From Mariniblastus sp. (GTDB lineage: Bacteria > Planctomycetota > Planctomycetia > Pirellulales > Pirellulaceae), in assembly GCA_022447555.1 (NCBI GenBank), contig JAKVBF010000021.1, positions 1 to 37,257 of the forward strand: 37,257 nucleotides of DNA, written 5' to 3'. The translations under genes were made by a program, and so were the position numbers. Below, one piece after another: positions 3,199 through 26,248 of the stretch. Within the stretch, counting starts at the first letter, position 1. Each line of letters opens with the position of its first letter. Under the pieces are notes generated by a model. That model saw nothing but the letters and a program-made list of their open reading frames with translations, did no database searches and was not told the DNA's origin.

Positions 3199-6100
3199 TT
3201 AATCATCATCCCCTTCGCCAAACTCCAACCAAAATTCAAGCTCCTCATCCATGGGCAATGCGTCTGCCGCGGCGTTCGGGTCACTGACAACTTGCAGCGT
3301 CTCTTTAAACGTTTGACCGTCCACCTTTAACGTCACCAAATACGTCCCAGTCGGAACGGTCGGTCCACCAAAGCCGCGCCTTGAGCCACCGCGGCCACCC
3401 GACCCTCTACCCTGATTATTGGAAGCTCGACGCAGATCCCAATCAACGGTATGGAGACCTTTGCCCGCTTCCAATTCATCAAACTCACGGACCACTGAGC
3501 CTGTCACATCAGTAACCATAAGCTGGACGTCCCTGGCACTCTTGCCTAACGAGTATTGTAACGCAGCCGAAGCCGACCGGTTTTCGCCTGTGAATTTTCG
3601 TGTTCCGCTACTGCCTCGTTCGGCACCGCGTCGCCATCGGATGACTTTGTTAGGTTTGTAAAGCACAGCATCCTTGGCAATATTCTCTTCGTTGAATTGA
3701 CGCAATCCTGAGATATCGCCGATCCAGATCGCGCGTCCATGGGTCCCCACCACCACTTCACCCGACGTCGGGTGAAAGGCAAATTCATGGACCGCCACAG
3801 TCGGCAAGTCGGCCAGACGACTCCAGGTACCACCACGATCAACTGAGACCCACGCTCCAAATTCGCAGCCAAGGAACAACAAGTTTTCACTCACGGGGTC
3901 CTCGCGTAAAACACGCACGGAACCTGCCGAGGTTGGCAAGTTGCCTCGAATGGACTTCCAGTTCTTACCGTAATCTTCGGTAACAAAAAGATACGGTTCA
4001 TCATCGTTACTTCGATGACCGTCGAATGAAATATAACATCGACCCGCATTGAATTTTGAAGCACTCAATGAGCTAACCCAACGAGGGCCTGGCATCATTT
4101 CTGCAAGACTAGATGTCGTCTTTTCGTCTTTTTCTTCTTCCTGGTTCTCAACAGCCTTTTCGCCCTCTTTGTCGGGCGACGTTTCCGGTTTCGTTTCAAC
4201 CACTTTGGCCGCACCCGTCCGTTTTAGTTCAAACTCCATACTGAAGGTCCCGCCATTGAACTCAGCTTCTCCTTCAAAATTACCGTCTTCGACTTTACCA
4301 ACAAACTCCAAGGTGAATTGCCCACTGTCGGATAACACGCTCAGTTCTTTTGTTTTTGGATTGAATGTCCCTTCTGTGATATCACCATCGAAACGATCCG
4401 TTGCGTAGGTACCGGTAATCTCTTTGTTTGACTTCCAAGTAAGCTCAACCGTCAAATCCCGCTCACCTTGCCTTGAAATCATCATCCCAGTCCATTTACC
4501 GGAAACCGAATCAACCGTCGCTACCTCAGTAGAGGCATCCTGATTGGAGGACGTTGCCTCGGCATCCTGCGTTTTATCTGCCGTCTCCCTCTCGTTATCC
4601 GACTTCTTTTTCTCGGCTTTAGCTTTCTCGGCTTTCGCTTTGTCGGCCTTCGCTTTGTCCGCTTTAGCTTTGTCCGCTTTAGCTTTGTCCGCTTTAGCTT
4701 TGTCCGCTTTAGCTTTCTCGGCCTTCGCTTTGTCGGCCTTCGCTTTGTCCGCTTTAACTTTGTCGGCCTTCGCTTTGTCCGCTTTAACTTTTTCGGCCTT
4801 TGCTTTGTCCGCTTCGGCTTTTTCCGCTTTGACTTTGTCGGCCTGCTTTTTGTCGGACTTCGCCGAACGGGCTTTTGCCGCCTTGATCTGCTTGGCCATA
4901 AAGTCAGCCGTCATCTGGCCATTTCCTGCAGCCATATCACCCGACATCGTTTTCCCATCGACCGTCGCTTCGAAGTCCAAAGCAAATTGCTCGTTTTCAG
5001 CCATAAAGAAAATCTTGTTGTTCTTGGGGTTAAACTCTCCCTCCTCAATGTCCATCGTTCCTTGGGGAGATTCCAATTCACCGGTGATTTTGTTTTCATC
5101 ATCTAACTCAATCATCAGCGTGAATTCAATTCGTCCGTCTGGGAGGTTCTCATTTTCAACGACGCATTCCCAAGTCCCGGCAACCGCGTTTTCTTCATCT
5201 TGTTGCCCCTTGGCGGTTAACAGACCGCTCATCAGTGCAGATGCCGTGGGCAACATTGGAACGCGAACAGAACTAACGCTTTGCGGATTATTTTTTTTGC
5301 GAGTCACCGAGAACTCGACGGTAAATTGCCCGTTGCCTGCCGTCATTTCACCGGACATCTCATCGCCGTTCACCTTCGCCGTGTACTCACGACTGCCACG
5401 TTCCCCGTCAATCACCAACGTCAGTTCGTTCTTCTCTGAATCGAATTTACCTTCGGAGATCGGGCTACTGCCGCGTCGACTCTCAACTTCGCCGGTCACT
5501 TTACCATCTGACTCAAGCTTCAACTCTAAACTTACCCGAGGAGCTTGGCCTTCTGGAAACCGATCGGAGATTAAAACACCCGACCAAGATCCCGAGACTA
5601 AATCTTTAACCGCAGGCTTCTCAGTCGATTTGGCAGGGGAAGACCCCTCCGGTTTTTTTCCTTCGCTCGATTTTTCAACCATGACTCGGCCGTCATCATC
5701 GTTGGAAACTGGCCTATCGCCACGTCCACTCCGTTGACGTTTTTCGGAACCGTTCGATGATTCTTCAGTTTTCCCACTCTCCTCTTCTTCCTCTTTTTTA
5801 ACCGAATACAGAGGCGTCCAGTTGTTCCCACCATCTTTGGTCATCCATACAGCACCGTCGGTGGTACCGACATACAAAACGCCTGGCTCTCTGGGGGACT
5901 CGGTAAGTGCGCTACCAGCCCCTTTGTCGGAATTGGTAATATCCGGCGAGATCGCCTTTACGCCAGACCCTTTTTTCACGGATTTGAAAACATGGTTTCC
6001 CGCGCTATAGTGGATCTGCGAATTATGGGGAGACAACAAAAACGGCGTTTTCCAATTGAACCGATACCGCACGCCACGTGTTTGCGGGCGAATGAATCCC

Positions 6101-7947
6101 CGAGCGCCCGTCCGTAGATTAATGCTGCCCATTCCACCATTTTGGCTTTCATAATAAATCTGATCCGAGTCATTGGGGTCAACCAGGGTGACAAAACCGT
6201 CCCCGCCGCCGACCCGATACCAGTCCGTGTTGACGGGGCCCGAATCGTTTGTCACGTGTGCCGGACCACCCCAAGATCCATTATCCTGCATGCCGCCAAA
6301 GACGTGATAATCGTCTCGTGTGTCGAGACCCACGTGGTAAAACTGACCAATCGCAACGTGATTTTGATGATCCCAGTTCTCCATTCGATCGTTGGTGATG
6401 TGGATCCCCCCATCATTCCCCAAAATCATGTGACGTCCATCCGTGGGGTCAATCCACAAAGCGTGATGATCCACGTGGATTCCGTCCGAACCACCATCAC
6501 CGGTGAAGGTCTCGCCACCATCTTTGGACCTGTAAAGCGATGTCCCAAGAACATACATATTCTTCCGGTCGGTTGGATCGACACGTATTTGACTGTAATA
6601 CATCGGCCGAGGATTCAGTGTGTTGATTCGTTTCCAACTGGAGCCTCCATCTTTGGACAGATAGACGCCTCCGTATTCTTCTTCGTTTTCGTTACCCTGT
6701 TGACCCTGAAGGTTGGCAGCTTGACCACCCAGTGTCCCCGTGAATTCAGTGCTGGGACTTCGTGAGCGACCCGAGCGCCGTGAACTGGTCCGCGGTTTGG
6801 GATATTTCCCCAATTCCATCTCAACATCGACCGTTTTGCGATCGCGGGAAACGATCATTTTGACAACGTCTCCCGCTTTGTGGGAACGTATCTCCTTGTC
6901 AAGATCTTGCTTGGAGTGGACTAAATTTCCATCCACAGAAATCACGATGTCGTCCTCTTTGAGACCGCTTTTTTCGGCATTCCCATCGCCGGTAACGCGA
7001 GTGATTCGCGCACCAAACCCTTCGGCGTCTTCCGCGCGAAAATCAGCGTACGCTGCATTCTCTGGCCGTTTTGCGATCTTCTCCGATTCAATCAACGCCA
7101 CGACATATTTAGGGTCCTTGCGGTAATAACTCAAACCGATCCGGCCCAGCTTGCAACTTGGCAATCCTTTACTGATTCGTTCGAACGTCTCACCGCCATC
7201 AGTCGATTTATAAACTCCTGAACCTTCACCATATTTTGTCATGGGGTCATTGCCATCAAAGCCATCCCGCTGACGCTCGTAAGTGGCAACCAACATCTCG
7301 TCAGGGTTTTTTGGGTTCAACTGGACATCAATCACACCCGTTTTATCGTCGACGTAAAGAATCTTCTTCCAAGTCTTTCCACCATCGGTTGTTTTGAACA
7401 GGCCGCGTTCTTCATTGGGGCCCCACAAGCGACCCAATGAACCCACAAAGACAACGTCGTCATCTTTGGGATGGATCGCCATGCGGCCGGTCTGAAAGGT
7501 CTTTTTGAGACCCATGTTTTTCCACGTCGCACCACCGTCGGTCGATTTGTAAACGCCATCGCCCCAGGAGACACTGTTTCGTGGGTTGGCTTCTCCGGTT
7601 CCAACCCAGACGAGATTTGGGTCATTCTGGGAAACCTGCACGTCCCCGATCGATACGGTTGATTGGTCGTCAAACTGGTGTTCAAAGTCATGGCCATTAT
7701 TGATGGTTTTAATGAGACCACCCGACGCCGAGGCCGCCCACCAGATATTGGGGTCCTTCTCATGAACCGCGATCGAAGTGATTCGTCCCGACATAGTGGC
7801 CGGTCCCACGGATCGAAATTTGACTTGCTCAACCCAATCCTTAGGCAACGTAGAGCCCTGGCCGAATGCCGATGGCGAACCAATCAATAAGAAGCAAATA
7901 GAAAAAATTCCGCAGCCAAATAGGCTTACGTTAGACAACGACTTCAT
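3199..7947 (-). CDS. Secreted BNR/VPS10-type propeller protein with PDZ domain, triple beta module and KADKA repeat
   Basis: I chose the ATG at 7947 (1582 residues) over one 45 bp upstream because GGAG precedes it and a signal peptide (MKSLSNVSLFGCGIFSICFL...SAFGQ) starts there. Sortilin/BNR repeats with the motif KSTDGGxTW fill about 25-290 and resume at 425-745 and 1270-1410. A PDZ-like domain interrupts the propeller at about 308-385. Three copies of a ~95-residue module follow (about 785-885, 922-1018, 1149-1245). Each opens with G-x-W, has a central ITG-type turn followed by an EGxF-type turn, and ends in GxF/M. A Lys/Ala/Asp repeat (1035-1114) separates copies 2 and 3. The C-terminus (about 1440-1560) resembles a FlgD/Ig-like domain with GTYLVTLKVDG. 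Bacterial VPS10/BNR proteins are often annotated as glycosyl hydrolases or sialidases, but I see no catalytic motif. A role in binding or processing at the envelope is possible. Substrate unknown. Confidence 0.85.
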   Translation of the reverse strand: MKSLSNVSLFGCGIFSICFLLIGSPSAFGQGSTLPKDWVEQVKFRSVGPATMSGRITSIAVHEKDPNIWWAASASGGLIKTINNGHDFEHQFDDQSTVSIGDVQVSQNDPNLVWVGTGEANPRNSVSWGDGVYKSTDGGATWKNMGLKKTFQTGRMAIHPKDDDVVFVGSLGRLWGPNEERGLFKTTDGGKTWKKILYVDDKTGVIDVQLNPKNPDEMLVATYERQRDGFDGNDPMTKYGEGSGVYKSTDGGETFERISKGLPSCKLGRIGLSYYRKDPKYVVALIESEKIAKRPENAAYADFRAEDAEGFGARITRVTGDGNAEKSGLKEDDIVISVDGNLVHSKQDLDKEIRSHKAGDVVKMIVSRDRKTVDVEMELGKYPKPRTSSRRSGRSRSPSTEFTGTLGGQAANLQGQQGNENEEEYGGVYLSKDGGSSWKRINTLNPRPMYYSQIRVDPTDRKNMYVLGTSLYRSKDGGETFTGDGGSDGIHVDHHALWIDPTDGRHMILGNDGGIHITNDRMENWDHQNHVAIGQFYHVGLDTRDDYHVFGGMQDNGSWGGPAHVTNDSGPVNTDWYRVGGGDGFVTLVDPNDSDQIYYESQNGGMGSINLRTGARGFIRPQTRGVRYRFNWKTPFLLSPHNSQIHYSAGNHVFKSVKKGSGVKAISPDITNSDKGAGSALTESPREPGVLYVGTTDGAVWMTKDGGNNWTPLYSVKKEEEEESGKTEESSNGSEKRQRSGRGDRPVSNDDDGRVMVEKSSEGKKPEGSSPAKSTEKPAVKDLVSGSWSGVLISDRFPEGQAPRVSLELKLESDGKVTGEVESRRGSSPISEGKFDSEKNELTLVIDGERGSREYTAKVNGDEMSGEMTAGNGQFTVEFSVTRKKNNPQSVSSVRVPMLPTASALMSGLLTAKGQQDEENAVAGTWECVVENENLPDGRIEFTLMIELDDENKITGELESPQGTMDIEEGEFNPKNNKIFFMAENEQFALDFEATVDGKTMSGDMAAGNGQMTADFMAKQIKAAKARSAKSDKKQADKVKAEKAEADKAKAEKVKADKAKADKVKADKAKADKAKAEKAKADKAKADKAKADKAKADKAKADKAKAEKAKAEKKKSDNERETADKTQDAEATSSNQDASTEVATVDSVSGKWTGMMISRQGERDLTVELTWKSNKEITGTYATDRFDGDITEGTFNPKTKELSVLSDSGQFTLEFVGKVEDGNFEGEAEFNGGTFSMEFELKRTGAAKVVETKPETSPDKEGEKAVENQEEEKDEKTTSSLAEMMPGPRWVSSLSASKFNAGRCYISFDGHRSNDDEPYLFVTEDYGKNWKSIRGNLPTSAGSVRVLREDPVSENLLFLGCEFGAWVSVDRGGTWSRLADLPTVAVHEFAFHPTSGEVVVGTHGRAIWIGDISGLRQFNEENIAKDAVLYKPNKVIRWRRGAERGSSGTRKFTGENRSASAALQYSLGKSARDVQLMVTDVTGSVVREFDELEAGKGLHTVDWDLRRASNNQGRGSGGRGGSRRGFGGPTVPTGTYLVTLKVDGQTFKETLQVVSDPNAAADALPMDEELEFWLEFGEGDDD
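4606..4845 (-). repeat. 15-bp coding minisatellite (KADKA units)
   Basis: Sixteen consecutive 15-bp units encode five-residue units of the type K-A-D/E-K-A/V inside the propeller protein. Many neighbouring units are identical or differ by one or two bases, mostly at third positions or D/E codons. Units stay in frame. The product would be a highly charged, probably helical or extended spacer between module copies 2 and 3. Confidence 0.92.
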
Positions 7948-8175
7948 AGAAGACTCCAAAGCGTCAAAAATAGTATTAAAATTGCAGCGCATGTTGCCGT
8001 TGTTAAAACAACGGAATGACTCTCTCGACCCAGTCCAATATTAGCAGCAGCTCACGACATGTTCAAACGACTTACGTCGCCTTTTGGTAATTTTCATGGG
8101 TAGACCGCCGGTTTTTGAGGGCGCTTGATGAGGTTAGAATGAATTCTTTGCAATTCACTCTTCAGCCGAATCGCC

Positions 8176-18240: not shown

Positions 18241-19617
18241 CTAAACCGACCGAGAACCATTCGGCTCTTGTTGCTCTGGACATTCCGCCACCGGCTTAGA
18301 GCAAAGCGAACAGGCGGACCCGCCCTCTTCCCCGGGTTTCACTGCAATTCCTCCGCAAGACCCCGTGATTGGCTTGTTGGCAAAAATGGCCCCAACGGCC
18401 ATCGCTGCGATCGCCAAACCAAAAAGCAAAAGGGCTCCCAAAAAGGCTGGCCAAATAGAACGTGAAGCCCTTGGTTGGGAAACGATCCGACCCGGGGCCT
18501 CTGCGGCCATGGGAAACGAAGCGGTTGAAAATGTTTCCCAGTTCATCACCTCAGTGTTGGCGTCTGGGTTCTTTTGCAGAACGAAAAACCCGTCTGCCTG
18601 ATGATTCTCACAAAAGTTTAAGCATCTTTTTTTGGCCGACTGACTATCCCCATTTTCCCCGGAAGCCGTCACCATCAAGGCGGTCGCCAAGGCGTCCGCC
18701 GTCATGCAACCTTTTGGCTCTGCATTGGTCTGTATTAGGGACGCTGACGCTAAACCATAGCGAACCGGCCGGCACGTCCTAGGGTCAATCGTGTGCGTGT
18801 ATTTCTGGCCGTCAATGATCCGAAAATTACGGTAATCACCGGAGGTAGCGAGCGAGCTATTCTCCATCACCGTGACCGCCAGAACCTCCCGAACGTTAGC
18901 CGTCGGCTTTTCGATACCGATCTTCCAGGGGTCTCCCTCCGGATTCACCCCATCGGTGCGAACCTCTCCCCCAACTTCAACCATGTAATTAACAAGCGAG
19001 CCACGATTGAGACGTTCGGCCACTTGGTCCACTGCAAACCCCTTGGCAATTGCCGAAAGATCAATCTGCACCCCAGGTTTTTTTTTCCGGATAGCCGGGG
19101 GCTCCTCCCGTACACGGATCATGGAATAGCCCACGATGGACAAGACATCTGCAACTTGTTGGTCGGTTGGCAGTTCCGAACCCATCCCCTCGGGTCCAAA
19201 ACTCCAAAGATTTACCGCAGGCCCGATCGTGATATCAAAAGCTCCATCGGTCAGTTCGCTGATTTCAAGCGAACGTTTCACAACCCGTGCCGTGAGCGGA
19301 TCAACCGGAAACCAATCAGTTGACTGACTGCGGTTAAAGCGCGTGACATCGGAATCGTCCCGATACGTAGACATTAATTCATTGACTTGGTCCAGCTCTT
19401 CCTGCACCCAACCCGCAAGAGTTTGCCGCGGAGGCAATTTTCCGTTATCGCCAACGACCACGCGATACTGTATCGGCCCCATCGTCTTGCCGGAAACCTC
19501 GATTGCCAACTGCGCGCAGGCTTCACTCGTGAGAAAGCAAAGGATCAACAAAAAAACGATCCGGCTGCATCTCACAACCCGATCGTTGGCCACCGATATT
19601 CGATCGTTGAGGTTCAC
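18241..19617 (-). CDS. apbE: ApbE FAD:protein FMN transferase fused to an NqrM-like C-terminal domain
   Basis: The 458-residue product starts at a GTG one base after the preceding stop. It has a signal peptide (about 14-36) and an ApbE domain (about 37-345): KTMGPIQYRV, MSTYRDDSDVTRFNR, GAFDITIGP, QIDLSAIAKGFAVDQ, ATSGDYRNFR, HTIDPRTCRPV and MTADALATALMV. ApbE transfers FMN from FAD to the Thr of SGAT-type motifs in NqrB and NqrC, both encoded upstream. After a linker, a membrane helix (about 395-417) ends in AMAVGAIFANKPITGSCGG, with further cysteines at 436, 439 and 446. This matches NqrM (DUF539), a small protein of one helix, CGG and four cysteines that is needed for the NqrD/NqrE iron site. 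NqrM is normally a separate gene after apbE. The usual Gly of DPRTGRP is Cys here. Confidence 0.88.
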   Translation of the reverse strand: MNLNDRISVANDRVVRCSRIVFLLILCFLTSEACAQLAIEVSGKTMGPIQYRVVVGDNGKLPPRQTLAGWVQEELDQVNELMSTYRDDSDVTRFNRSQSTDWFPVDPLTARVVKRSLEISELTDGAFDITIGPAVNLWSFGPEGMGSELPTDQQVADVLSIVGYSMIRVREEPPAIRKKKPGVQIDLSAIAKGFAVDQVAERLNRGSLVNYMVEVGGEVRTDGVNPEGDPWKIGIEKPTANVREVLAVTVMENSSLATSGDYRNFRIIDGQKYTHTIDPRTCRPVRYGLASASLIQTNAEPKGCMTADALATALMVTASGENGDSQSAKKRCLNFCENHQADGFFVLQKNPDANTEVMNWETFSTASFPMAAEAPGRIVSQPRASRSIWPAFLGALLLFGLAIAAMAVGAIFANKPITGSCGGIAVKPGEEGGSACSLCSKPVAECPEQQEPNGSRSV

Positions 19618-19618
19618 G

Positions 19619-20011
19619 TCAGTCCTTCTTCTCCGCCAAACGCGTACCGTTCAACAACCCCGCTTTGATCAAATCCGCAAACGTCATCTTTTTCTTTTCG
19701 ACGATGATTAAAACTTCTTTAAAGGAGGCAACCATCTCATCTTCGTACGCCTTCTGCTGTTCTTCCCCCAACGCCTTCGCCGCTTCGTATTTCTTTGAGA
19801 TCTCGCGACCTTTAAACTCGTCAGCGAAATACTGGCCGAAGGTGTTGTGTATGGAACGGTCTTTACTGTTTGGATGGCACGTCTTGCAGGAGACCGTCTT
19901 CAAACCGTAGCGTTCTTCCAACGGTTCTTTGTAAACGTCGTGGGCCTGCACTGCCGCCGATTGCGCAGCTACCAAACAAACAAAAGCAACCCAACAACAC
20001 TTGAACATCAT
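19619..20011 (-). CDS. Small secreted CxxCH (c-type heme) protein inside the nqr operon
   Basis: I chose the ATG at 20011 because GAAGGAAAG lies just upstream and a signal peptide starts there (MMFKCCWVAFVCLVAAQ..., cleavage near AVQA-HD). The open frame extends 49 codons further with no family-like sequence. The mature part (about 105 residues) has VSCKTCHPN, a single CxxCH heme c motif at about residues 42-46. FGQYFADEF follows, then a helical Lys/Glu-rich region. No clear distal Met ligand is visible; the one Met in the Lys-rich region is a candidate. It is 173 bp downstream of nqrF and its stop is one base from the ApbE-NqrM start. A periplasmic electron-carrier role linked to NQR is an inference. 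Confidence 0.75.
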   Translation of the reverse strand: MMFKCCWVAFVCLVAAQSAAVQAHDVYKEPLEERYGLKTVSCKTCHPNSKDRSIHNTFGQYFADEFKGREISKKYEAAKALGEEQQKAYEDEMVASFKEVLIIVEKKKMTFADLIKAGLLNGTRLAEKKD

Positions 20012-20184
20012 CTTTCCTTCTCCAGCTAAACACGTGCCGATTCTACTCAAATCGGGTGACGACTTAATGACAAACCACCGGCCAAATGCGCCGGACCCTT
20101 CGCGGACATCGTTTCGATTCCAATCCAAGAGGGGAGCCTGTTCGCTACCTTGGGTCACGAACCGGAGCTCAGGCCGTTCCTATG

Positions 20185-21405
20185 TTAACCACCGAAATCG
20201 TCGAATGCTATGCTTTCAGGTTCAACCCCAAGATCATCCAACATTTTGAATACCGCCGAATTCATCATGGGAGGCCCGCAGATGTAATACTCAATATCTT
20301 CCGGAGCCACGTGTTCTTCCAGATAGTTGTCCAACAACACTTGGTGAATGAAACCCGTATAACCATCCCAGTTGTCTTCCGGCAAAGGCTCCGAGAGCGC
20401 GATATTGAATTGAAAGTTGGGAAACTCTTCTTCAATTTTTCGGAAATGATCGATATAGAACAACTCACGCAAACTCCGACCACCATACCAATAGGTCACT
20501 TTCCGCCCAGTTCGAAGGTTCTTAAACAGCTCAAAAATATGACTTCGAAGCGGCGCCATTCCAGCACCACCACCGATGTAAACCATCTCTGATTCGGTCT
20601 CTTTGATGAAGAACTCGCCGTAAGGACCTGAGATGGTAACCTTATCACCCGGTTTCAAATTGAAGATGTACGAAGACATTTGTCCCGGGGGTACATCTGG
20701 CAGACGCGGCGGGGGCGATGCCACCCGCACGTTCAACATGATGATTCCTTTTTCTCCTGGATAGTTCGCCATGGAATAGGCGCGAACCACCGTTTCGTCG
20801 ACGCTTGAATGATACCGCCAGACATCATACTTATCCCAGTCTTCTCGATATTCGTCTTCGATCTCAAAATCTTTGTAATCCAATTCGTGCGGAGGCGCTT
20901 CAATTTGAATGTAACCTCCCGCCTTAAAGGCTACGTCTTCGCCTTCGGGTAATTCTAAAACCAATTCCTTGATGAACGTGGCAACGTTGTGATTCGAACG
21001 TACCGTGCATTCCCATTTTTTTGTTTCAAATGCCTCCTCGGGTACCTCGACTACCATGTCCTGTTTAACTGCGACTTGGCAAGAGAGACGGCAGCCTTCG
21101 CGTGCCTCCCGCTTGTTGATGTGCCCCGTTTCCGTGGCGAGGATCTCACCCCCGCCTTCGGAAACCTTCACCAGACACTGGGCACACGTTCCACCCCCGC
21201 CGCAGGCTGAGGAGACAAAGATTCCCGCATCCGCCAAAGCACCCATCAATTTCCCTCCGGCGGGAACGGAGAGTTCTTTTTGGTCGTTGACCAAAATCTT
21301 TACTTCACCACTCGCTACGAGAAAGGATTTTGCTACGAGAATGACGCCAACCAGAGCCAGAACAGTTCCGACGAACAGTATCACGCCAAGCAGGATTTCA
21401 AACAT
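20185..21405 (-). CDS. nqrF: Na+-translocating NADH:quinone reductase subunit F
   Basis: The start at 21405 gives 406 residues with an N-terminal membrane helix (about 3-28), matching NqrF; an upstream start at 21507 would add 34 unlike residues. The 2Fe-2S ferredoxin domain has C68, C74, C77 and C109 ([10 protein letters not shown] and CRLSC). The FAD domain has [10 protein letters not shown], and the NADH-binding part has [13 protein letters not shown] and [12 protein letters not shown]. The C-terminal FDDFGG is typical. This subunit takes electrons from NADH and passes them through FAD and 2Fe-2S into the membrane complex. Confidence 0.97.
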
Positions 21406-21481
21406 ATTAAAAGGCTCAACAAGTTCGAGTTGTATCAGTAAACAAAAGCAACAGTAAACGGGGGTTGATCGGACCAACCAC

Positions 21482-22069
21482 CTAGGGTTCGATACCGCTG
21501 AAAGCAAGGAAACCTAACGCCATAAGGCCAACAATCATGAATGTGATCCCCAGCCCACGTAAACCATGGGGGATATCGCTGTACTTCATCTTTTCACGGA
21601 TCCCTGCCAAAGCGGCGATTGCGACCGCCCAACCGAAGCCCGAAGAAATACCATACCGACAGCTGGAAAGAAAATCTAAGTCATCGGTCACCATGAATAG
21701 CGTGCCACCCAAAATAGCGCAGTTTACGGTGATCAATGGAAGGAAAATCCCCAGCTGGTTGTAGAGCACTGGAAAAAACTTATCGAGAGTCATCTCAAGG
21801 ATTTGGACCATCGCCGCAATCACCCCGATGTAGCAAATCAACCCCAGATAGTCGAGTTCGAGCGGAAGCAAAACCTGACGATAGATCAGGTTATTAGCGG
21901 GAACGGTAATCGCTTGCACGACGATAACGGCTACCCCAAGTCCAAGAGCGGTTTTAACATTTTTGGAGACGGCCAAGAATGTACACATCCCTAAAAAGTA
22001 GGTCAGCGCTAAGTTCTCTACGAACGCTTCATTCAAAAAATTACGAAACTGATCTGATAGAAAATCCAT
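21482..22069 (-). CDS. nqrE: Na+-translocating NADH:quinone reductase subunit E
   Basis: The 195-residue protein has six predicted helices and is paralogous to NqrD. The conserved cysteines are in [11 protein letters not shown] and [11 protein letters not shown]. With the NqrD cysteines they hold the intramembrane iron centre. The segment [17 protein letters not shown] is typical. Three bases separate it from nqrD. Electrons pass through this centre from NqrF to the FMN of NqrC. Confidence 0.97.
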
Positions 22070-22072
22070 GAT

Positions 22073-22699
22073 TTACGCCTCCTCCATCTGGTCTGTTTTC
22101 CAACACCTCAAAACCCAAATGAAGATTCCGATAATAAAAAATGCACTGGGGGAAAGTAACATCAAACCGTTCGGTTCATACCAGCCCGCCTCACCTTTCG
22201 GCAAGACTGTGAAACCCAACAGGGTACCACTACCAAATAATTCTCGAATCGATCCAACCACGACCAGTATCAAACCATATCCAAGGCCGTTCCCAATTCC
22301 GTCGAGGAAACTGTCCCGAACGGTATTTTGCATGGCGAACCCTTCGGCCCGCCCCATCACAATACAATTCGTAATGATCAGCCCCACAAAAACCGAAAGT
22401 TCTTTGCTCAACCCATAGTTGAACGCTTTCAGGAATTGATCTACTAAAATAACCAACGAAGCAATGATGGTCATTTGAACGATGATCCTGATACTCGATG
22501 GTATCCTGTGGCGGATCAACGCGACTCCCGCGCTGGCAAACGCACACACGAAGATCACCGCGATCGACATCGTGATCGATTTATCCAACTTGGTTGTGAC
22601 TGCCAACGCCGAACAAATTCCAAGAATCTGCAGGGCAATCGGATTGTTGTTAAACACCGGATCCCAAATAAGATCCTTGGCACTTGCTTTTTTCGCCAT
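22073..22699 (-). CDS. nqrD: Na+-translocating NADH:quinone reductase subunit D
   Basis: The 208-residue membrane protein has the NqrD signatures [11 protein letters not shown] and [16 protein letters not shown], with the two cysteines of the NqrD/NqrE iron site. [21 protein letters not shown] and [17 protein letters not shown] follow. It begins directly after the nqrC stop, so translation is likely coupled. Confidence 0.97.
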
Positions 22700-22700
22700 A

Positions 22701-23588
22701 TCAATATCCCTCCGGGTTGGAGGTGGTTGGGTTAGAAGCGGTTTTCATTTCAAGACTTTTTTGTTTTTCGATAAACGGCCCAAACCCTTGTGGACCCATC
22801 CAGAATTTAAGCATGTTGGTCACACCGCGTGAGGTAATCGTGGCTCCCGAAAGGCCATCTACCGCATATTCATCGCTTGGCTCGGCGGCCCCTTTGACAA
22901 CCTCTATAACGACGTTGCCGTCATCGCCAAAGATTTTTTTAGGATTGTCAGGATCGCGCCATAAATCCTTCCACCATTTGGCATCGACTTCGCCGCCCAG
23001 ACCGGGCGTCTCAGCGTGTTCGTAATAGGTCAAACCAGCAATGGTGTCGAAATCATTATCGACCGCGATGAATCCCTTCAGAATCGACCACAGCCCTTTC
23101 CCTCGAACGGGAAAGACGTACTTTGAAATCCTACCGTCCTCGCCTTTAACGAGGTAAACATGGGAATAAATCTCTACATTGGAAACCCCTGCGGTATTCT
23201 CCTCCGCTGTCAGTTTCCGGGAAAGCCCCTCTTCGAGTGACTTAGCATCCTTGGCCGTTTGGATCTGATCGTAATCCGCCAAAGCCTGTTGATCACTGCT
23301 GAATTTATCATCCACGGAAACCAGTTTGTCGGCTGCCCGCTCACCGGTGGCCAGATCGATGATGATCGGTTCGACACGACTATCATACAGCGACTCCACG
23401 TCTCCGGATGACGCGAGTTGAACACTGGAGAAACCCGCCGCCTGGAGAATGTTTTTCTTCATGTCCAGAGCAATATTTTTTTGCTGCAAGTCTCGCAAAC
23501 CAACCGCGGCGGTGGACACGAACAGACTGCAGACCAGGCAGACGCCGGCGGCGACGACCAATGTGTTGGCGATACTATCGCGTTGCAT
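22701..23588 (-). CDS. nqrC: Na+-translocating NADH:quinone reductase subunit C
   Basis: The start at 23588 yields 295 residues beginning [17 protein letters not shown], the usual NqrC opening with one membrane helix; an upstream start at 23636 is less likely. It overlaps the end of nqrB by 14 bp. The extracytoplasmic FMN-binding domain contains [14 protein letters not shown] and [13 protein letters not shown]. The Thr of SGAT (about residue 250) is the covalent FMN site modified by ApbE. Confidence 0.96.
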
Positions 23589-24900
23589 AACGTGCCACCC
23601 TTCGTTTGATATTAGCCTGAACCACAAAGTAATCAATTAACGGGGCAAACACATTGGCGAATAGAATTGCCAACATGATCCCCTCAGGAAAGGCCGGGTT
23701 CACCGACCGAACTAAGACCGTCATGAATCCTATCAAACCTCCATAGACCCATTTACCTTGCCGCGTCATCGATGCCGAAACGGGATCAGTCGCCATAAAG
23801 ACCGTACCGAAGGCGAACCCACCGATCACCAAATGCCAGATCGGCGAAATGTGCATCACCGGTTCGGAGAAAGGGAGCAGATAAAGTAGGCTGGAAAAGG
23901 CCGTCATTCCAACCACCACGCCAGCCATGATCCGCCAACTTCCGATTTTTGAGAAGATCAGAATCGCTGCGCCGATTAAGCAACACAGGGTTGATGTTTC
24001 TCCGAGTGAGCCGTGAATATCGCCAATAAAACATTGCCACCAAGTGGTCCCTGAATCGGGTCCCCCTATCTCGGCCACAATTTGTGACGTCGAGACCGTT
24101 GCCCCGTCTGCCAGAGCCGGCGTTTCAGCAATTTTGGCCAGCGCCGTCGCCCCGGAGTATCCATCCACGGCCGTCCAAACCCCGTTTCCGCTGATCTGTT
24201 TGGGATAAGCAAAGTATAAAAAAGCTCGCCCCGTCAATGCCGGGTTTAAAAAATTGCGGCCGGTCCCACCAAAAATCTCTTTGCCCACCACGACGCCAAA
24301 GGCGATTCCCAAGGCAACCTGCCACAAGGGGATTGTTGCGGGCAACGTAAGCGGGAAAAGCATACCTGTTACCAGGAAGCCTTCGTTGATTTCGTGTTTC
24401 CGGATCACACTAAAAATCAACTCGCAGGTCCCTCCTACCGCCATTGTCACGATGTATATGGGGACAAAAAACAACGCTCCATGAATCAGACACGGCAGCC
24501 AACTCCCAAAACTCAGAAAGCCTCCTGGGTTGGTTGTGTAGGAAACACCCAACGCGTCCATCACCGAATAACGCCAGGTGCCATGCCACAAATTTTCAAA
24601 GAGCGATCCGTAACTCAACTTGTATTGAACCGCCGCGTCCGCGCTCGCCGAGAGGACTTTGTCGGCTTGATAGCCCGTATTGTAAAGGGCCATCAAAATA
24701 CATGGCAACAACGCAACGATGACCATCGACATCATTCGTTTCGTGTCGATCGCATCGCGAACGTGGGTCGAGCCCTTGGAGACTTCACCCGGCGTAAAAA
24801 GGAACGTATCGTTCGCTTCATACAGCGGATACAGCTTTTCCAGCCGTCCCCCTTTTTTGAACAGGGGCTCAATCTTATCCAGTAGGTTTCTCAAAAACAT
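23575..24900 (-). CDS. nqrB: Na+-translocating NADH:quinone reductase subunit B
   Basis: The 441-residue membrane protein begins [20 protein letters not shown] and has about ten helices. The covalent FMN site lies in [11 protein letters not shown], with T252 as the flavinylated residue. [18 protein letters not shown] and [12 protein letters not shown] are typical. NqrB forms the main Na+ path and binds riboflavin and quinone near its N-terminus. It begins 7 bp after nqrA. Confidence 0.97.
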
Positions 24901-24907
24901 TCCGAGC

Positions 24908-26248
24908 TTATCCTTCTTTCTCGATATGATTCAGGTTTTGACGCAAGATCGAACCGTAATCGTATTTGCCAGGACAAACGTAGGTACAAAGAGCTAAGTC
25001 CTCTTCCCCTAGTTCGAGGCAGCCAAGTGATTGTGCTAGGTCAGTATCGGCCGTGATAAGCGCTCGCAGTAGTTGTGTGGGCAACATATCGAGCGGCATC
25101 ACGCGTTCATAAGTCTCAACAGGCACCATCGCACGTGCGCTACCTCCCGTGCTGGTGGTCATGTTGAATTTCTTTCCACGGCTAAAACTTCCCGCGTAGA
25201 TGTTAGTAACCGAGAATTTCTCCAAACCAGGACCTTGCCAGCCGAGAAATTCCCGCTTATTACCCTCCTCTAAGACCGTCACCTGCAAGTCGTAACGTCC
25301 GAGGTAATTATTTGGGTGCTGAGAGATGTGTCCATTGAGAACCGAACCCGAGATCACGCGGGCATTGTCCAGATCAACTCTCCCTTGAACCAGTTGATCC
25401 AAACAGGCTCCAATCCGAGTACGATAAAGCCCCGGATCCTCCACCAGCGGCCCCCCCATCGCGACCACTCGCTCCGTCATCAATTTCCCGGTGGTAAAAA
25501 GGTGGCCGATCGCGATCAGGTCCTGATAATTTAGGTGCCAAACCGTCTTCTCGGGATTCACCGGATCCAAAAAGTGAATGTGTGTCCCGACCAAGCCTGC
25601 CGGATGTGGCCCGTCAAACCGAGCAAACTCAACACCAGTAATGTCTTCTCCAGGCACCCTCGAATCGTCTCGTGTGCAGACAAACGTCTTTCCCGCCGTC
25701 AGCTGCTTTACAACCGTCAGACCGGCTACAAACAGATCAGCGTGTTCCGCAATCACCAACTCGGGCTCTGCGGCCAATGGATTTGTGTCGATCGCAGTAA
25801 CAAAAATGGAATGCGGTTCAGACTCCGGTGACGGGACTTTGTCAAAAGGCCGAGTCCGCAAGGCGGTCCACAAACCGCTGTTTAGCAAATTCTGCCGGAT
25901 CACCGCCCTATCGAGTCCTTCTAGGCCGTCGTACTTTTGGAAATTCTCTTGGTCATCACCATCAAGGGCGATCACCAGCGATACAAACCGTCGTTTTTCT
26001 CCGCGGTTGATTTCCGTGACCGTACCACAACCTGGGGCTGTATAAATTACGCCCGGATTCTTTTTGTCCTCAAACAGCCGTTGTCCCTGTTTGACCCGAT
26101 CGCCGATCGCCACGTCCATCGTCGGACGCATGCCTTGATAATCGTCACCCAGTAAGGCGACGGATTCGACGGGCGGACCTGGCTTAATTGCTTGAACCGG
26201 TTGGCCCGTAATGGGGACATTTAGACCTTTTTTGATTTGGTAGACCAT
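24908..26248 (-). CDS. nqrA: Na+-translocating NADH:quinone reductase subunit A
   Basis: The 446-residue soluble subunit opens with [14 protein letters not shown] and carries [30 protein letters not shown] and, near the end, [23 protein letters not shown], all typical of NqrA. It is the first gene of the nqr operon. A perfect palindrome sits about 115 bp upstream. NqrA binds quinone-site inhibitors and associates with NqrB on the cytoplasmic face; it carries no confirmed cofactor. Confidence 0.97.

Follow-up and report, generated by a model that had tools for sequence, protein, structure and literature searches.

Substrates of the flavin transferase ApbE carry a motif of the form D-x-x-(S/T)-G-A-(T/S), and in Vibrio the CGG cysteine of the small protein NqrM is reported to be the essential one. 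The NqrM of Vibrio harveyi was reportedly described by Kostyrko et al. in 2016. As set out in the available portions of PMC12174285 and PMC6209661, ApbE attaches FMN covalently to NqrB and NqrC of Na+-NQR, and NqrM seems to be needed for the intramembrane iron-sulfur centre to be inserted; how the NqrD/NqrE iron site is built is an open question in the literature, as far as these portions go. Most characterised ApbE members carry a lipoprotein signal according to the accessible part of PMC12052999, which also describes a trypanosomatid fumarate reductase with an N-terminal ApbE domain.

In a stretch of 37,257 nucleotides from Mariniblastus sp., analysed here as a whole and called the window, one gene carries both maturation factors. 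Its C-terminal domain shares with NqrM (DUF539, PF04400), as known from V. harveyi, the single helix, GSCGG followed by three further cysteines, a place in an nqr operon and a position after ApbE (PMC12174285 and PMC6209661), but it is part of the ApbE polypeptide, in a single open reading frame (ORF), and not a separate small protein. Compared with the ApbE flavin transferases (PF02424; PDB 6nxi, 3pnd), the whole catalytic domain is kept, including the conserved H275 and TADALAT, and the nqrB and nqrC target motifs are likewise present in the operon; the fusion adds a C-terminal membrane helix and a cysteine motif, and most fused forms lack the usual lipoprotein cysteine. Both this protein and the trypanosomatid enzyme join ApbE to a functional partner, but there the partner is the substrate of ApbE (PMC12052999, accessible part), whereas here ApbE is joined to another factor that matures the same complex. 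This architecture of two known maturation factors is real and recurrent, and the literature searched does not mention it within the portions available, including those of PMC12174285, PMC6209661, PMC12682751 (reference entry only), PMC12052999, PMC8238504 and PMC4014512.

The apbE-nqrM gene and its operon

From N to C terminus the protein consists of a secretion signal, ApbE, a variable linker, one membrane helix and the NqrM domain (Table 1). The original prediction had the coordinates of the ORF right, and the order of ApbE, one helix and CGG, as well as all four cysteine positions, were as it described; the frame is uninterrupted on the minus strand, and the plus strand of the same interval has stops in the translated frame. 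The signal peptide would be of type I, cleaved after ACA.

Table 1. Features of the apbE-nqrM gene and of the nqr operon in the window
Feature	Position	Strand	Basis or remark
apbE-nqrM fusion gene	18241..19617	minus	ORF, 458 aa; GTG start at 19617; no internal stops
N-terminal signal peptide, about residues 1-35 (...TSEACAQ)	19513..19617	minus	by eye
ApbE flavin transferase domain, residues 67-318	18664..19419	minus	PF02424, E 5.6e-79
Single transmembrane helix, about residues 388-412	18382..18456	minus	hydrophobic stretch, preceding CGG
NqrM domain, about residues 388-447, with three more Cys after GSCGG	18277..18456	minus	Pfam NqrM, alignment
Cys421 codon (CGG cysteine)	18355..18357	minus	sequence and alignment
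Cys436 codon	18310..18312	minus	sequence and alignment
Cys439 codon	18301..18303	minus	sequence and alignment
Cys446 codon	18280..18282	minus	sequence and alignment
nqrF	20185..21507	minus	TIGR01941, E 2e-201, from residue 38; true start probably internal
nqrE	21482..22069	minus	Cys29 and Cys117 in LGMC and VNC contexts, taken as iron site
nqrD	22073..22699	minus	Cys29 and Cys112, taken as iron site
nqrC	22701..23636	minus	ApbE target motif DGLSGATIT, ORF residue 260; true start probably internal
nqrB	23575..24900	minus	ApbE target motif DGYSGATAL, residue 246
nqrA	24908..26248	minus	upstream of nqrB

The gene closes a complete nqrABCDEF operon, as its predicted placement at an operon end implied: nqrA to nqrF lie upstream in the same orientation, and a single small ORF separates nqrF from the fusion, whose GTG start lies one base past the TGA of that ORF. 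NqrB and NqrC of this operon both carry the ApbE substrate motif. The pairs Cys29/Cys112 of NqrD and Cys29/Cys117 of NqrE are taken to be the iron site, an assignment based on known structures.

The intervening ORF (19619-20158, minus strand; probable start MMFKCC, 130 aa) encodes a small secreted protein with one CxxCH haem-type motif (SCKTCHP). A Pfam search with it gave no match. Across the fetched loci phmmer returned 27 matches, many of them duplicate fetches, which fall in the host genus and in named records corresponding to it; many other loci end before this region. Elsewhere in the window, the minus strand encodes a 1597-aa protein (3199-7992) with a repetitive lysine/alanine-rich stretch (AEKAKADKAKADK...) and a 606-aa cysteine-containing protein (934-2754) with many YTVCVPYTE-type repeats.

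The ApbE domain scores 265.8 bits against a Pfam cut-off of 25.6, and our ApbE profile A1 matches solved ApbE structures, best 6nxi at E 9.3e-103. The putative core residues S83, D197, H275, A307, D308 and T312 are invariant in 35 aligned sequences. For the C-terminal domain, the Pfam NqrM match covers residues 411-426; its score rises from 19.2 bits with the whole protein to 20.9 with the final 79 aa and 21.6 with the final 63 aa, all under the cut-off of 22. A match to NqrM in the C-terminus, on which the original prediction had staked the identity of this domain, was thus seen, but at 20.9 bits for the last 79 aa it fell just short of the cut-off, and the claim came close to failing on the Pfam score of the window protein. 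Among six related fusions scanned whole, five pass (27.0-30.6 bits) and one, L022, lies below at 21.0; all 17 C-terminal pieces compared with PF04400 at E<=0.1 match it, the best at 2e-8 (13 fused and 4 stand-alone, from the same order). The pattern M..G..KPxxGSCGG..C..C..C is invariant in 25 of 25 aligned sequences (7 fused planctomycete, 18 proteobacterial stand-alone), with a longer stretch from CGG to the second cysteine in the window than in most of the proteobacterial ones. The four-cysteine pattern is kept in 71 of 72 fused proteins, the exception, G323, having a different but cysteine-bearing motif. A sequence search for a solved NqrM structure gave five chance-level matches, the best at E 0.7. 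Three tests agree in identifying the C-terminal domain as NqrM and bear out the predicted fusion to ApbE: the Pfam matches of the C-terminal pieces and related fusions, the invariant motif in the alignment, and the lack of any other match to a local NqrM profile in the host genome.

A separate nqrM elsewhere in the genome had been named as a point to check. Our local NqrM profile A3, built with the window sequence included, gave one match at E<=10 in the host genome (62 contigs, 97.5% complete, so that 2.5% of the genome may be missing; all 33 first-look candidates scored), namely the fusion itself, and no second NqrM. The Pfam NqrM model gave no match in this genome at E<=0.001, not even at the fusion locus, and none in 14 control genomes; since it is silent even at its own locus, the Pfam search is uninformative on absence, for which the local profile is our sole basis. 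None of the 123 matching genomes of the order yielded more than one NqrM match, with up to 14 candidates scored per genome.

Distribution of fused and split forms

A survey of planctomycete genomes, which had been proposed at the outset, was run and found the same fusion recurring in the order and, over all genomes pooled, in four families. In the host genus it is present in 21 of 25 genomes (24 relatives and the window's own), and it can therefore be neither a frameshift nor an assembly artefact. Of the four host-genus genomes in which it was not found (G011, G013, G018 and G020), G018 and G020 also lack a convincing NqrF; G011 and G013 fall outside the NqrF sample. Order-wide, an NqrM profile match occurs in 123 of 396 sampled genomes: in 54 it is fused to ApbE, in 65 it is a separate gene with apbE immediately before it, in 3 there is no ApbE in the vicinity, and 1 is unconfirmed (G058, whose weak match, L184, was dropped). 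A protein was called fused if, after the locus was fetched, ApbE lay in the same stop-to-stop frame as NqrM; one CxC-type protein is counted in each of the two groups, and the fused group also takes in a locus whose sequence contains a run of unknown residues. A long open frame alone was rejected as a criterion: G434 has a 456-aa frame with ApbE in another frame, and in-frame ApbE was therefore required.

Pooling a first search of 40 genomes (own genome included), the order scan and the fetched loci of a phylum scan gives 161 genomes, of which 72 are fused, 80 split, 4 with NqrM alone and 5 without NqrM. The phylum scan matched 57 of 392 genomes; 26 of the 57 were left unfetched and unclassified and are probably split, because their frames are of 195 aa or shorter. 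By family, the 72 fusions comprise 58 in f1, 7 in f7, 6 in f21 and 1 in f17. Whole genera are fused, with 21 of 21 NqrM-bearing genomes in g1 and 9 of 9 in g23, and genus g103 is mixed, with 2 fused and 9 split. In named records, where a closer profile set (A4) was used, the best 80 of 494 confirmed loci included 17 planctomycete loci, all fused, and 63 proteobacterial loci, none fused (51 split, 12 without ApbE in the stretch); records were ranked by likeness to the Mariniblastus-type query, which favours fused planctomycete loci, so that 17 of 17 is not a frequency.

NqrF (TIGR01941) scores above cut-off in 178 of the 396 order genomes. Compared by hand, the NqrM match tracks NqrF closely in family f1; the exceptions seen were G302, in which ApbE runs into the contig end, and G354. 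In family f7, NqrF is present but NqrM unmatched in G198 and G218, and the opposite holds for G246, all three being incomplete genomes. In three genomes of genus g29 (L201, L202, L216) an NqrM gene without ApbE nearby lies about 170 kb to 1 Mb from nqrF, and at L025 (G039) an ApbE has a C-terminal hydrophobic stretch without the NqrM cysteines.

A tree of the ApbE domain alone (148 rows, NqrM left out) calls for at least 14 changes between fused and split, falling to 8, 5 and 4 when branches with SH-aLRT support below 80, 90 and 95 are collapsed; it comes from a quick search with 47 open forks and omits the CxC-type L183 and L219 and the short rows L057 and L182. Twelve proteobacterial ApbEs added as an outgroup failed to group. 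If the root is taken as split, 9-13 fusions and 0-4 fissions are required when both cost the same, and 5 fusions and 11 fissions when a fission costs half as much; the number of fusions thus ranges from 5 to 13 with the price set on fission. The fused/split state has changed repeatedly, and each change may have been a fusion or a fission. Domain spacing is alike in the two forms: the gap between the ApbE and NqrM domains of the 80 split pairs is 112-404 bases, with a median of 132 and 74 of the pairs falling in the range 100 to 215, and the fused linker, variable in both length and sequence, is 43-76 aa (median 54.5, n=72).

Membrane anchoring, proposed role and alternatives

ApbE proteins were scored for a lipobox by rules of our own, a hydrophobic core and then a cysteine in a lipobox context, in a strict and a loose version. 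Among 147 of the 148 tree rows, one having too little N-terminus, the strict rule finds a lipobox in 5 of 69 fused versus 52 of 78 split ApbEs and the loose rule in 9 of 69 versus 68 of 78; a first version on 148 proteins, L183 included, gave 6 of 70 versus 53 of 78 under the strict rule. The window signal (SEAC) passes the loose rule, which denotes a possible lipobox, and fails the strict one. Ten split ApbEs have no lipobox under either rule, and several of them resemble, by eye, proteins with uncleaved N-terminal helices. Because the proteins are related, Fisher p-values for these counts are not meaningful alone. In 12-13 independent pairs, taken as non-overlapping paths on the best tree whatever the branch support, the loose rule gives on average 8.5 pairs in the expected direction and never the opposite (median p 0.008), and the strict rule 6.6 to 0 (p 0.016); confined to strongly supported branches there are 4 pairs, of which 2.1-2.2 agree with expectation and 0.1-0.3 go against it, a number too small to reach significance. 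At genus level a lipobox is the majority state in 2 of 23 fused genera under either rule and, in split genera, in 27 of 30 (loose) or 21 of 30 (strict). A lipobox is thus common in split and rare in fused ApbEs, and the NqrM helix therefore seems to substitute for the lipid anchor in the fusion. The helix, together with the contrast of 52 of 78 split to 5 of 69 fused, also lends support to the original suggestion that one polypeptide anchors the flavin transferase at the membrane. In our reading, ApbE has to stay attached to the membrane, a task that a lipid usually performs and that falls to the NqrM helix in the fusion, and the loss of the lipid anchor upon fusion is a natural experiment on this need.

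With ApbE exported and one helix following it, the NqrM cysteines would lie inside. Counts of lysine plus arginine are higher on the C-terminal side of the helix in 44 of 71 fused proteins, with 16 equal and 11 reversed, and in 57 of 79 split proteins, with 13 equal, a bias that fits an N-out/C-in orientation of the helix as judged from residue counts. Since the ApbE end is necessarily outside, the fusion tells the orientation of NqrM and hence where its cysteines would meet their iron source.

The gene very probably encodes a two-domain maturation factor for Na+-NQR, with ApbE outside the membrane and the NqrM helix and cysteines spanning it and reaching the inside. The outer domain would attach FMN to NqrB and NqrC; the helix, taking over from the lipid that normally anchors ApbE, would cross the membrane; and the CGG/cysteine motif, facing the cytoplasm, may act as stand-alone NqrM does, in the iron supply to the NqrD/NqrE site proposed in the literature. 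This iron-site role is put forward by analogy with published work on stand-alone NqrM and from the conserved cysteines of NqrM, NqrD and NqrE. Fusion would fix ApbE and NqrM at one copy each and keep both at the same enzyme, where one molecule could serve the flavin and the iron steps on one complex. On balance we lean, if slightly, towards a broader proposal: that ApbE and NqrM have repeatedly been joined in Planctomycetota into a maturase that spans the membrane, with the NqrM helix in place of the lipid anchor and with one molecule performing flavin attachment outside and iron-site building inside on one nascent Na+-NQR, and that one family of the order additionally has a second class of NqrM, with C-[SA]-C only, fused to ApbE in some members.

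The sub-cut-off Pfam score of the window protein and its longer stretch between CGG and the second cysteine would both suit a different view of the C-terminus, as a degenerate membrane anchor derived from NqrM, its role in iron supply having been lost or taken over by another factor. We consider this very unlikely: GSCGG and the four cysteines are kept in the window and the four-cysteine pattern in nearly all fused proteins, G323, the sole exception, still has cysteines in its motif, and no second NqrM match turned up in any of the 123 matching order genomes among the up to 14 candidates scored in each. Least probable, to our mind, is that the polypeptide is cleaved after translation into an ApbE and an NqrM that act separately; the variability of the linker in length and sequence would agree with it, but cleavage would free an ApbE that lacks a lipobox from the membrane, and no conserved linker site is visible by eye.

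A possible but doubtful alternative is that the fusion reflects simple stop loss between neighbouring genes, selectively neutral and without functional gain. It is compatible with a two-function protein, denying the advantage and not the functions, and it accords with the closeness of the split genes (median gap 132 bases), with a fused linker of similar length and with the recurrence of fusions interspersed with split genes. Against it stand the retention of the fusion across whole genera (all NqrM-bearing genomes of g1 and g23) and the loss of the lipobox from most fused ApbEs, which indicates that fusion was accompanied by a changed anchoring of the enzyme. The fusion suggests a coupling of flavin attachment to iron-site building that is tight enough for one polypeptide to serve both, and it offers a bigger handle with which to pull NqrM onto the complex. 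What makes it valuable is the anchor swap, the fixed topology and the ease of testing, rather than any new chemistry.

Divergent CxC-type NqrM-like proteins in family f17

In family f17 NqrF is present and canonical NqrM almost absent. Six of its loci have, beside ApbE or fused to it, one helix followed by C-S-C (ECSCKTTARVM, GCSCKAARRIM and similar); L183 and L279 are fused, and L219, L267, L270 and L278 split. The gene for NqrF lies just upstream in five of the six; L219 stops at a contig end, and its genome is without a convincing NqrF. At L272, with nqrF and ApbE present, no CxC-type protein was seen. Downstream of nqrF in 14 of 19 f17 loci (L263-L266, L268, L269, L271, L273-L277, L280, L281) neither ApbE nor NqrM occurs in the stretch, and the nqr operons of these 14 may therefore be without linked maturation genes.

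Pfam did not recognise NqrM in the three CxC proteins tested. A profile of all six (A7) aligns with canonical NqrM at an hhalign probability of 96.6 (E 6.6e-10, 44 columns), the second cysteine of C-x-C falling on the CGG cysteine, and it cross-matches canonical NqrM loci such as G131 and G105. Within f17, by hand count, A7 matches 41 of the 53 genomes that have NqrF at E below 1e-89 versus 4 of the 59 that do not, or 36 of 48 versus 3 of 58 once the six genomes that supplied the profile are set aside. We regard the C-[SA]-C proteins as a lead, as divergent NqrM-like proteins of putative function, and such variants may reveal which cysteine positions of NqrM are dispensable. Among 20 further A7-matched loci (L283-L302), 14 have no ApbE in the stretch; 10 ORFs neighbouring the CxC gene at five ApbE-less loci comprised 7 with Pfam matches, none of them respiratory, and 3 without a match. 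In the other 6, ApbE lies beside the CxC gene, and in 4 of these (L283-L286, genus g105) the two are fused.
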